Source: an uncultured Acholeplasma sp.
GTDB taxonomy: Bacteria > Bacillota_I > Bacilli_A > Acholeplasmatales > Acholeplasmataceae
DNA: 64,000 nucleotides
Reading direction: 5' to 3'
Assembly (NCBI GenBank): GCA_937868795.1
Contig: CALMNM010000152.1
Span: 1 to 64,000, forward strand
The stretch's first letter is position 1; every line of letters begins with the position of its first letter. Below are positions 2,057-15,267 of this stretch, piece after piece. Made by a program: the position numbers and the translations under genes. The notes under the pieces are model-generated. The model saw only the letters and a program-made list of their open reading frames with translations, had not been told where the DNA came from and searched no databases.

Positions 2057-2077
2057 ACGAACACCCCTTCTTTAAAT

Positions 2078-2311
2078 AAAAAAACGCCCTATGCTAAGGA
2101 CGTTGATTACGTGGTACCACCTTAGTTCTAGCAAGCTAGCACTTATCATATCGTTAACGGGACGAACCGGGCACATCTTTCGAGGCCAACTCAGAGGGAG
2201 TAACTCGATCATGTTCGCAGCTTGCACCATCCTGCGTCGCTATAAGTTGATCTTATCGTGTCCTCTTCATCGTTACTATAACTATTATAGCACGTTCTTA
2301 TGCTTTTTCAA
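2078..2311 (-). promoter_or_regulatory. T-box leader of thrS with promoter and attenuator
   Basis: The promoter is TTGAAA (2306-2311), a 16-base spacer and an extended -10 TGCTATAAT (TATAAT at 2284-2289). The T-box core AAGGTGGTACCACG is at 2110-2123. The antiterminator can form from CTAAGG/CCTTAG (2120-2125 with 2094-2099). It competes with a terminator stem (2083-2089 with 2098-2104) followed by a run of T. A stem I-like part with AGCGA, GGTGCAAG and CCTCTGAG lies upstream. I could not fix the specifier codon with certainty; an ACT in the expected region is a candidate. Uncharged tRNA-Thr should favour readthrough into thrS. Confidence 0.93.
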
Positions 2312-11116: not shown

Positions 11117-11137
11117 ACCGAAAGTTATTCTTTCGGT
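11117..11137 (-). terminator. tpx terminator
   Basis: ACCGAAAG and CTTTCGGT pair over a 5-base loop and are followed by TTTCTTTT. The stem overlaps the tpx stop codon. Confidence 0.85.
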
Positions 11138-11625
11138 AATTTTTTAACAAAACTGATGAGTTCATCGAACTTCAAATGTTGGCTCATTTCATCCACATAT
11201 TCTAAATAGATGATACGTCTTTGTTCATCTAAGACAAAAACGGAGCGCGCTTGCAAGCGAAGTTCTTTGATGTTTGTTCCATACTTTGTCGCGAAGTCCA
11301 AATCCAAATAATCGGATAGCGTGATGACATTATCAAGACCAGAGTTACCACACCAACGTGCTTGAGCGAAGGGTAAGTCATTGCTGATGGTGAGCACAAT
11401 GACATCATCACGTTCCGTCAATTCACTATTCACGGTGCGTGTTTGTCTGTCGCATACGGTCGTATCAAGTGAGGGAACGACACTTATGACGATATATTTT
11501 GACTTGTAGTCACTCAGGTTTTTTACTTCACTTTTGGTATTTAATGCGTGAAAATCCGGGGCCAGATCCCCAATCTTTTTTGTGTCTCCTAGGAGTGTAA
11601 TGGGTTTTCCTTTGAATGTTTTCAT
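11125..11625 (-). CDS. tpx: Thiol peroxidase (2-Cys peroxiredoxin, Tpx type)
   Basis: Tpx reduces hydrogen peroxide and alkyl hydroperoxides using thioredoxin. The peroxidatic cysteine is in SLDTTVCDRQT and the resolving cysteine in ARWCGNSG, the spacing of the atypical 2-Cys Tpx group. I chose the ATG at 11625, preceded by AAGGA, giving 166 residues, the normal length. The reading frame stays open for 48 more codons upstream, but that part reads through the promoter and the terminator of an upstream RNA. It is a single-gene unit with its own extended -10 promoter and terminator. It may also receive readthrough from the small RNA region just upstream. Confidence 0.95.
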   Translation of the reverse strand: MKTFKGKPITLLGDTKKIGDLAPDFHALNTKSEVKNLSDYKSKYIVISVVPSLDTTVCDRQTRTVNSELTERDDVIVLTISNDLPFAQARWCGNSGLDNVITLSDYLDLDFATKYGTNIKELRLQARSVFVLDEQRRIIYLEYVDEMSQHLKFDELISFVKKLPKE

Positions 11626-11656: not shown

Positions 11657-11665
11657 ATTATAGCA
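11657..11665 (-). promoter_or_regulatory. tpx promoter (extended -10)
   Basis: TGCTATAAT lies 32 bases before the tpx start codon, downstream of the terminator of the upstream RNA. The -35 region is weak. Confidence 0.6.
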
Positions 11666-11683: not shown

Positions 11684-11781
11684 TAAAAAAGCGGCCCCCC
11701 TGAACCAGGGAGACCTAAAGGGGACGGATTGTGTGAGATAGGCACACAATCCTTGGGGATAAGTAACATCCTCTCGGATGT
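11684..11781 (-). ncRNA. Candidate structured small RNA, about 98 nt, family unknown
   Basis: A 5' hairpin ACATCC-GAGA-GGATGT (11766-11781) starts exactly where the promoter predicts the first base. A second, perfect 10-bp hairpin follows (GGATTGTGTG with CACACAATCC, 11726-11752). A third stem (11693-11715) ends in a T-rich run to 11684 and is a classic terminator. Between the stems are C-rich unpaired stretches, TTATCCCC and GTCCCCTTT, which are complementary to Shine-Dalgarno-like AAAGGGGA. I do not recognise the family. It lacks the SRP RNA GGAA loop region and has no tRNA, 6S or known riboswitch signature. It could be a trans-acting small RNA of the RoxS/RsaE style or a leader attenuator of tpx. 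Confidence 0.65.
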
Positions 11782-11787
11782 AAAGAT

Positions 11788-11816
11788 ATCATATCATCTT
11801 TAAATCGTTTTGTAAA
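11788..11816 (-). promoter_or_regulatory. Promoter of the small RNA
   Basis: TTTACA (11811-11816), a 17-base spacer, then TATGAT (11788-11793). The predicted start is at about 11781, the first base of the 5' hairpin. Confidence 0.75.
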
Positions 11817-11829
11817 GCCCTAGTTCATG

Positions 11830-13614
11830 TCAATCCTTTTTGATATATTTGCATGATGGGAAGCCTGAACATGCAGTGAATTCACCATACTTAGAGGTTC
11901 TTATGACCAAAGGTTTCCCACAAACGGGGCAGAGTTCTCCAGTCTTTTGTGGTTGAATCTTCTTCATTTCTTTTTGGGCAGTTTCGACCATCGGTGTAAA
12001 GCTATGATAGAATCTTGAAATCAAATGGGATCCTTTTTGCTTTCCCTCTGCAATCTCATCCAACACCGTTTCCATCTTTGAGGTATATTCAACATTGATG
12101 ACTTTATCAAAGAATAAATCGAGTTGTTCGACGGTGAGTCGACCTTGTTTGGTTGGCTTGAAACGTTTTTCTTCAATTTCCACATAATCTCTATTCTTTA
12201 ACGTTTGAATAATTTGTGCGTAAGTGGATGGACGACCGATACCAAGTGATTCCAATTCCTTGATCAATGTAGCTTCAGAATAACGTGTTTTTGGTTGTGT
12301 CACCTTTTCGATAGATAACACATCTTTCGCATTCAGTTCTTGACCCAAAATGAGATGGGGAAGAATTTTGTCCTTTGTTTTTTGATCATTATAGACTTTT
12401 AAGTGTCCATCAAAACGTTCCACTGATCCTTCGACCATGTATGCATGGAGTTGGGATGTTAAGGTTATCTTGGTGACATCAAAAATAGCTGGAGCCATTA
12501 AGGATGACAAAGCGCGGGTATAAATACGCTTATACAGCCGGAATTCATCTTTAGATAAATAAGGTTCCATCTTTTCAGGTGTTCGTTGGATCGAGGTTGG
12601 CCGAATGGCTTCATGGGCATCTTGGGCATTGGCCTTGGTGGAGACGCTATATTTTCCAAGATATTTAGGTCCAAAATGATCTTTAATATAGTTTTGTGCT
12701 TCATGGATGAAGGGTTCTGCTAAACGATTGGAATCGGTACGCATATAGGTGATGAGACCAACACGTTCGCCATCGATATCAATCCCTTCATATAAAGCTT
12801 GTGCCACCATCATGGTACGCGTCGCACTCATGCCCAGTTGGTTAATAGCATCCTGTTGTAAGGTTGAGGTGATAAAAGGTGCTTTAGCATTTCGTTTCGA
12901 TTCTTTGGTTTGAATATCACTCACCACAAATGGATTGACTGATTCTTTGACGATGAGATCTGCTTCTTCTTTGCTTAATCGCTTTTTCTCTGGGATCATA
13001 TAATCCGCTTTTAAATGAGAGAAATGAGCTTCGATTTCATAATAGGTTTCTGGGATAAAGGCTTCAATTTCCTTTTCCAGATCAACGATTAGTTTTAGTG
13101 CTACTGATTGAACACGACCAGCGGATTTCGATTTGATCTTGTTTTGAAGCAATTTAGATAACTTAAAACCAATAATGCGATCTAAGATTCGTCTCGCTTC
13201 CTGGGAGTAAACCAAATGTTGATCGATGGGTCTTGGATGATTCAGTGCTTCGAGAATCGCAGGTTTAGTGATTTCTCTAAAGACAATACGATTGCTTTCT
13301 TCTGCATTAAGTCCTAATAATTCTGATAAGTGCCAAGCGATTGCCTCACCTTCACGGTCAGGGTCAGTCGCGATTAATACATCTCTACCCTTCGCTTTTT
13401 GGACTAATTCTTTCACGAGTGCTTGTTTGCCACTGATGATTGTGTAATTGGGTTTGAAGTGATTATTGATCTCCAATCCCAATCCTTCAGGTCCTGAGGT
13501 TGCAAGGTCTCGCACGTGTCCTTTTGAAGACAAAACAAGCACGTCATTACCGACATAACTTGCGATGGTTTTCGATTTAGATGGTGATTCGACGATGATG
13601 AGTTTCTTTGCCAT
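11830..13614 (-). CDS. topA: DNA topoisomerase I
   Basis: This type IA topoisomerase relaxes negative supercoils. The 594 residues begin with the TOPRIM domain (IVESPSKSKTI; ATDPDREGEAIAWHL), and the active-site tyrosine lies in LITYMRTDSNRL. The protein ends in a single four-cysteine zinc finger (CPVCGK and CSGFPSCK). Bacillus TopA is about 690 residues with several zinc modules, so this form is shortened at the C-terminus. The usual partner dprA is not upstream; rnhB is the next gene. A near-perfect promoter and an AATAGGAGTG ribosome site precede it, so it is a single-gene unit. Confidence 0.97.
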   Translation of the reverse strand: MAKKLIIVESPSKSKTIASYVGNDVLVLSSKGHVRDLATSGPEGLGLEINNHFKPNYTIISGKQALVKELVQKAKGRDVLIATDPDREGEAIAWHLSELLGLNAEESNRIVFREITKPAILEALNHPRPIDQHLVYSQEARRILDRIIGFKLSKLLQNKIKSKSAGRVQSVALKLIVDLEKEIEAFIPETYYEIEAHFSHLKADYMIPEKKRLSKEEADLIVKESVNPFVVSDIQTKESKRNAKAPFITSTLQQDAINQLGMSATRTMMVAQALYEGIDIDGERVGLITYMRTDSNRLAEPFIHEAQNYIKDHFGPKYLGKYSVSTKANAQDAHEAIRPTSIQRTPEKMEPYLSKDEFRLYKRIYTRALSSLMAPAIFDVTKITLTSQLHAYMVEGSVERFDGHLKVYNDQKTKDKILPHLILGQELNAKDVLSIEKVTQPKTRYSEATLIKELESLGIGRPSTYAQIIQTLKNRDYVEIEEKRFKPTKQGRLTVEQLDLFFDKVINVEYTSKMETVLDEIAEGKQKGSHLISRFYHSFTPMVETAQKEMKKIQPQKTGELCPVCGKPLVIRTSKYGEFTACSGFPSCKYIKKD

Positions 13615-14435: not shown

Positions 14436-15267
14436 AGGTAAGACCTCCTAATTGGCGACCTCTAATATCTGTTAAGATGATCTGATAGACGCGTTGATAA
14501 TCAATCTCGCCGCCTTTGATTAAACAACCTCTTGATTTACCGATCGTATCGAGCATCTCGACGTAAGATAACTCACGCGTTAACCCGTAACGCTCATAAA
14601 GACGATCTGGATAATGCTCTTTAAGAAATTCCAACGCATAATGAACAACATCATCTTCGGGTAGAATCTTATCTTTTATCGCCCCTGTGATGGCTAAATG
14701 ATAGCCCACTTTAGGATCTTCAAACTTTGGCCAAAGCACACCAGGGGTATCAAGGAGTTCAAAATCATCACCTAGTTTAATCCATTGTTGACTCTTGGTT
14801 ACTCCAGGTGTATTGGCTGTTTTAGTAGCAGATGATTTTGAAATCTGGTTGATCAGTGTCGATTTTCCTACGTTAGGAATCCCTAAGATCATGGTTCTTA
14901 GAGCTCGTTTTTGAAGACCTTTTGATTTTTCTCTTGCAAGTTTATCTTTTAAAACTTCTTCTGCTAATGGACGGATCTTTTGCACATTTTTTCCTGTTTG
15001 TGCATCAATTAAAAGCGTGGTATACCCTAAGTTTTGATAATATTTTCTAAACACTGATGTCATGTGTTCATCCGCGAGATCCATCTTATTTAATAATAGG
15101 ATTATAGGCTTATGTTGGATAATCTTATAAAGTTCAGGATTCATAGAAGAAAGAGGGAGTCTCGCATCGAGTAAAACGAACACGATATCCATAAGCTTAA
15201 TACGTTCCTTGATTTCTTTAAGTGATTTAAACATATGACCAGGAAACCATTGGATTTGTTTAATCAT
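14422..15267 (-). CDS. rbgA: Ribosome biogenesis GTPase RbgA (YlqF)
   Basis: RbgA is needed for late assembly of the 50S subunit. It is a circularly permuted GTPase: the G4 motif LLNKMDL comes before the P-loop [10 protein letters not shown] and [10 protein letters not shown]-terminal RNA-binding domain ends near [16 protein letters not shown] chose the ATG at 15267, which forms an ATGA overlap with the lepB stop; it gives 281 residues and the family start [12 protein letters not shown]. An upstream in-frame start adds seven residues from within lepB and is less likely. Confidence 0.96.

Follow-up and report, generated by a model that had tools for sequence, protein, structure and literature searches.

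A deeply conserved small RNA with C-rich unpaired segments encoded behind topA in Acholeplasma and related bacteria

Introduction

What is the short structured unit that lies between topA and tpx in the DNA of an uncultured Acholeplasma sp.? It is found in a stretch of 64,000 nucleotides (positions 1 to 64,000 of contig CALMNM010000152.1), which is called the window here. An initial annotation had preferred to read the unit as an independent small RNA of no known family, the other reading being a riboswitch-like attenuator of tpx.

Small RNAs with C-rich single strands are known from several Gram-positive bacteria. LhrC of Listeria and csRNAs of streptococci, which often occur in several copies per genome, pair with ribosome-binding sites via unpaired C- or U/C-rich stretches; they belong to other bacteria, have other structures, and are set apart from the present RNA by these known features and by the Rfam scan described below. 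RsaE/RoxS RNAs act on ribosome-binding sites of metabolic mRNAs and are induced by regulators of the ResDE/SrrAB type. Pairing of C-rich regions with Shine-Dalgarno sequences has been established for RoxS (PMC4409812) and for IsrR, which is under the control of Fur (PMC9410917). Apart from 6S RNA, S. aureus and B. subtilis are known to share a single trans-acting small RNA, RsaE (PMC4409812), and thus deep conservation of trans-acting small RNAs is unusual.

Organization of the unit

The unit is encoded on the minus strand, a point absent from the initial annotation, and all features given below for the window are on this strand. It occupies about 11782 to 11685 in the intergenic region between topA (11830..13614), encoding DNA topoisomerase I, which is the conserved upstream neighbour, and tpx (11125..11625), encoding a thiol peroxidase with Redoxin/AhpC-TSA domains, which lies outside the RNA. 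The predicted RNA (11685..11782) is about 98 nt long with predicted ends, as judged from its fold and from the match to the covariance model R3 (11782-11717, 50.8 bits, E 1.2e-9).

Every part of the unit that had been claimed, a TTTACA-17-TATGAT promoter, two hairpins, two C-rich unpaired segments and a terminator, is found here. The promoter is of the sigma-A type, with the -35 element TTTACA (11811..11816), the same hexamer being present in 38 of 45 homologues, and the -10 element TATGAT (11788..11793) at a 17-bp spacer, and the RNA is predicted to start near 11782/11781. Hairpin 1 at the 5' end (ACAUCC-GAGA-GGAUGU, 11766..11781) has 6 bp and a GNRA loop; this cap had been noted before and is present in the window as GAGA, but it is not a feature of the RNA family, in which the loops vary. 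The single strand after hairpin 1 reads UACUUAUCCCCAA, and the C-rich segment 1, ACUUAUCCCC (11755..11764), is the predicted seed 1. Hairpin 2 (GGAUUGUGUG-CCUAUCU-CACACAAUCC, 11726..11752) is a perfect 10-bp stem with a 7-nt loop; it is followed by a single strand reading GUCCCCUUUA, and the C-rich segment 2, GUCCCCUUU (11717..11725), is the predicted seed 2. Both segments are unpaired in the minimum-energy fold. The intrinsic terminator (11685..11715) has a 10-bp stem, in the stem-loop GGUCUCCCUG-GUU-CAGGGGGGCC (11715-11693), and then GC and UUUUUU.

The fold energy is -39.8 kcal/mol as compared with -25.3 +/- 3.2 in shuffled sequences (z = -4.5; 0/200 as good), and thermodynamic prediction gives a single dominant fold with the terminator intact (minimum-energy structure frequency, 0.60). 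The start of tpx (11625) lies about 60 nt past the U run of the RNA. A separate tpx promoter is located downstream of the RNA terminator, with the -10 element TATAAT (11657..11662) and TG one base before it, forming the extended -10 TGCTATAAT (11665-11657). This distance and the own extended -10 of tpx, both stated earlier, are confirmed in the sequence.

Relation to known RNAs

With Rfam 15 at the gathering threshold, the whole window gave nothing for the RNA and one tRNA only, and around the RNA only chance-level matches appeared at E up to 10, with RsaE absent from them. In 16 homologous loci, the matches to Rfam at E up to 0.5 were only tRNAs and one weak unrelated match elsewhere in a locus. 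The statement that the RNA belongs to no known family thus holds for the window and these 16 loci. It might be argued that the RNA is a diverged member of RsaE/RoxS (Rfam accession presumably RF01820) or of another Rfam class that the models miss, in view of the C-rich unpaired regions of the same kind in a related bacterial group. However, this reading, already without support, is very unlikely: RsaE gave no match even when E values as high as 10 (window region) or 0.5 (the 16 loci) were admitted, and the locus (topA-ftsY) and the hairpin layout are different.

The likeness to these regulators is therefore one of kind. Like RoxS/RsaE of Bacillus and Staphylococcus, which are short, widely conserved and provided with several C-rich regions that pair with Shine-Dalgarno sequences (PMC4409812), the present RNA has two such segments, for which pairing is predicted, although it has no covariance-model match to RoxS/RsaE and differs in hairpins and locus. 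It shares with IsrR of Staphylococcus the hairpins, the terminator and exposed C-rich regions, of which IsrR has three, pairing at ribosome-binding sites (PMC9410917). On the other hand, two C-rich regions of IsrR are in loops whereas both segments here are between hairpins, and no Rfam family, IsrR included, gives a covariance match here. It has an independent promoter and terminator, as expected of a trans-acting small RNA, and by its testable features we class it as a new family within this known kind.

A literature search found no publication describing a topA-linked C-rich small RNA. Intergenic regions of Tenericutes have been analysed, with a report of an Acholeplasma motif before aroF (PMC8632094), and promoters have been mapped in A. 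laidlawii (PMC5138195); topA and tpx are unnamed in the main text of the former, and topA and thiol peroxidase are unmentioned in that of the latter. The RNA family is apparently undescribed, although the A. laidlawii copy might be one of the unnamed candidates in the supplement of PMC8632094.

Distribution of homologues

Homologues were collected first by DNA and pattern searches, then with a covariance model (R1) and with enlarged models (R2 and R3). The DNA and pattern searches recovered 13 full homologues, all within the same taxonomic family; their consensus is UGCAUCC-loop-GGAUG[CU]UACUUAUCCCCUAU-n-GUGUAC-loop-GUACAC-AAAAUCCCCUUA-terminator. R1 matches 43 of 88 genomes of this family at E <= 0.1, including a few weak or chance matches, mostly with E < 1e-8 and nearly always once per genome. 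Carriers within Acholeplasmataceae include A. laidlawii (predicted RNA in record L093, 1210 to ~1310), A. oculi, A. granularum, A. equifetale and others, and homologues are present in most Acholeplasmataceae searched, apart from reduced phytoplasma-like genomes. There is no homologue in the genus g7, with genomes of 0.3-0.9 Mb which, to judge from this size, look like phytoplasmas, and likewise none in g5, g10, g12 and others.

With R2 and R3 the range extends to two further families of the order and, in other orders of the class, to several more; the core in these families reads ACUUAUCCC[CU]UACAUA and ACAUCCCCUUCC. In total, at least six families besides Acholeplasmataceae have homologues, and most of these families lie outside the order; in 392 genomes sampled across the phylum all matches are confined to this class. 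Dozens of genomes share this combination of promoter spacing, hairpins, C-rich segments and terminator, which is far beyond chance; the small RNA is a real, deeply conserved family.

Several hits were dropped as chance, being devoid of the architecture or apparently coding (pattern hits L020, L021, L026 and L027; model hits L075, L076, L078 and L317), and the viral pattern hits L371 and L372 were rejected for absence of the fold and overlap with open frames. In one family, a second chromosomal copy is located away from topA (L126, L129, L135 and L136), preceding in L126 and L129 a gene resembling that for a small heat shock protein. Two RNA copies lie about 450 bases apart in L119 of family f19 (1550-1613 and 2068-2132, minus strand), a possible local duplication.

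Conservation of stems and seeds

Covariation in relatives had been proposed as a check on the unit, which passed it. Among 66 distinct sequences, in an alignment that, like the other large ones, was fitted to the covariance model, 98.1% of helix cells are standard-paired as compared with 81.3% in shuffles, double-sided changes that preserve pairing occur in 11 of 12 helix pairs, and the covariation score is 0.525 versus 0.215, with 0/500 shuffles as high. The stems of both hairpins covary, the signal collapses when the partner is slid by 1-3 columns, and RNAalifold recovers both stems. For 11 close relatives, a MAFFT alignment made without fitting to the model points in the same direction more weakly (2 double-changed pairs; 17/500 shuffles).

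Few positions of the RNA are as constant as those of the C-rich segments, with CUUAUCCC and AUCCCCUU barely varying. Among the distinct sequences of A6, the CUUAUCCC positions of segment 1 are 86-100% identical with CCC invariant; UAUCCC of this segment is 98-100% identical, and CCCC of segment 2 is 83-100% identical. The seeds vary less than the bases that form the helices, with the exception of the outer pairs of hairpin 2, which are nearly invariant.

This pattern bears on the idea that the unit is a small protein gene or a fragment of the topA 3' UTR. It lies directly behind topA, and in this genome the tpx frame is open upstream through the RNA; however, homologues differ by indels and stem-preserving substitutions with no codon-like pattern of change, the unit has its own promoter at a fixed spacing, and copies are found far from topA. 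Already disfavoured, this idea is hardly tenable.

Independence from tpx

As for the promoter and INDEPENDENCE, the core promoter was analysed in 45 loci: the spacer of the best promoter measures 17 bp in 43 of them, and in 43 of them exactly 5 nt separate its end from the first base of the model. Of 71 homologous loci, 70 have a terminator; the 5' side of its stem occurs in 54 different sequences, and thus it is kept as a structure and not as a sequence.

In Acholeplasmataceae, the copy linked to topA stands behind this gene and on its strand in all loci with a readable neighbour. The gene after the RNA is tpx in most loci of Acholeplasmataceae, ftsY in three genomes without tpx there (L047, L048 and L056), and neither in the Acholeplasma genomes L057-L059, L061-L063 and L065. 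In A. laidlawii, about 100 nt after the unit are without an obvious gene start. The commonest order in other families is topA-RNA-ftsY, then a ylxM-like gene, suggesting that tpx was probably inserted later at the topA-RNA locus. Other downstream genes include that for an ABC transporter.

These arrangements bear on the two readings of the initial annotation. If the RNA were a cis-acting attenuator or riboswitch of tpx, its hairpins would sense something and its terminator, which lies on the same strand about 60 nt ahead of the tpx start, would gate tpx, the next gene in most Acholeplasmataceae. However, the RNA is kept after topA whatever gene follows, before ftsY or unrelated genes and in A. 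laidlawii without an obvious gene close behind, which argues against such an attenuator and for an independent trans-acting RNA. Copies on prophages and a plasmid, and the own promoter of tpx after the terminator, argue in the same direction. One constant class of downstream gene, expected for a riboswitch, is not seen among the loci (tpx, ftsY, ABC transporter and others), and no anti-terminator pairing competing with the terminator appears in the predicted fold, which dominates at the frequency given above. The attenuator, already largely refuted, is thus highly improbable, and the independent small RNA, with its own terminator, is favoured. Comparison among genomes, at the level of sequence, establishes this independence from tpx along with the architecture, covariation, seed conservation, promoter and terminator.

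Possible mode of action

We consider it fairly likely that the RNA is transcribed independently and acts in trans, its C-rich segments pairing with Shine-Dalgarno regions of mRNAs. Transcription from the sigma-A-type promoter would begin at or beside the opening base of hairpin 1, and this hairpin would protect the 5' end of the RNA. The two C-rich strands, (A)CUUAUCCC(C) and AUCCCCUU, would be held unpaired by the two hairpins, and the intrinsic terminator would end the RNA ahead of tpx. The most likely partners of the C-rich segments are G-rich Shine-Dalgarno regions (GGGGAU-like) in a limited set of mRNAs, and this pairing would block translation or alter mRNA stability. By analogy, the action is probably anti-Shine-Dalgarno, as in RoxS/RsaE and IsrR; transcription of the RNA, its pairing with mRNA and the ensuing repression are inferred.

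Complementarity of the segments to Shine-Dalgarno sequences had been pointed out in the initial annotation. Sites for the first seed are not enriched at starts. The counts of GGGGATAA near starts against a permuted 8-mer were 277/196 in genomes with the RNA and 123/72 in those without it (p = 0.30). Sites of GGGGATAA at starts exceed the reversed pattern, equally in genomes without the RNA; in view of this and of the permuted seed, target enrichment is not claimed. In carriers, GGGGATAA is found just before the start of genes for alanine dehydrogenase, the nrd beta subunit, thymidylate synthase, GMP reductase and purine phosphoribosyltransferases, these names being assigned by reading the sequences. 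Among the candidates tested, none kept a complementary site generally across its orthologues. Alanine dehydrogenase was rejected as a conserved target, with GGGG at the site only in three genomes of the genus Acholeplasma. The nrd beta subunit, picked post hoc, was not upheld, with GGGG in 6 of ~16 RNA-bearing genomes and in 0 of the readable starts in RNA-less genomes. In the records upstream of nrd beta (L257-L273), GGGG-type ribosome-binding sites are seen solely in RNA carriers, also a post hoc observation on few cases.

The main rival to base-pairing is protein binding, in which the two AUCCCC repeats are bound by an RNA-binding protein, for example of the KH or S1 type, and the RNA acts as a decoy or otherwise titrates or guides this protein. 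Two near-identical single-stranded motifs flank a constant hairpin, there is almost no variation in the unpaired letters and in the outer pairs of hairpin 2, and the seed is not enriched at start codons with no shared target found, all of which fit this rival. Nevertheless, C-rich strands beside hairpins are the known layout of base-pairing RNAs in Gram-positive bacteria (PMC4409812, PMC9410917), and no candidate protein was identified, so that protein binding appears unlikely. Base-pairing is the best-supported mode, its support coming from the anatomy and not from the target searches.

Copies on mobile elements

Several copies give evidence for carriage of the RNA by mobile elements. In four IMG/VR prophage contigs (L140, 11309-11370; L142, 7078-7137; L143, 12892-12953; L144, 2764-2830, minus strand), a close variant with unchanged seeds stands directly behind large serine recombinases arranged in tandem (Resolvase/Recombinase domains), at a distance of about 40-60 nt. 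A plasmid of Tenericutes bacterium MO-XQ has another such close copy with these seeds near 15010-15084 (CP017949.1), and a divergent copy with a longer hairpin 2 is located in an 82-kb phage-like contig (L141, 4356-4442) with SSB and AAA genes nearby. Chromosomal copies in other families lie beside recombinase genes or their remnants, and the C-rich seeds of the chromosomal RNA are retained in the extra copies. In L117 and L118, read by eye, an element of recombinase and RNA is apparently inserted beside a hydG-like gene, with only recombinase remnants left, from ~960 to 340 bases upstream of the RNA. One tentative and somewhat doubtful reading is that temperate phages have acquired a housekeeping small RNA which is fixed behind topA in several orders, and that prophages place a near-copy with the seeds unchanged right after their tandem serine integrases, near the end of the element; an incoming element may thereby seize the post-transcriptional network of the host.

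Biological significance

The topA-linked RNA spans several orders at a fixed place, in a host group with little described RNA regulation. One of the carriers, A. laidlawii, can be cultured. The phage and plasmid copies with the same seeds provide a natural test of whether mobile elements exploit the small RNA network of the host.
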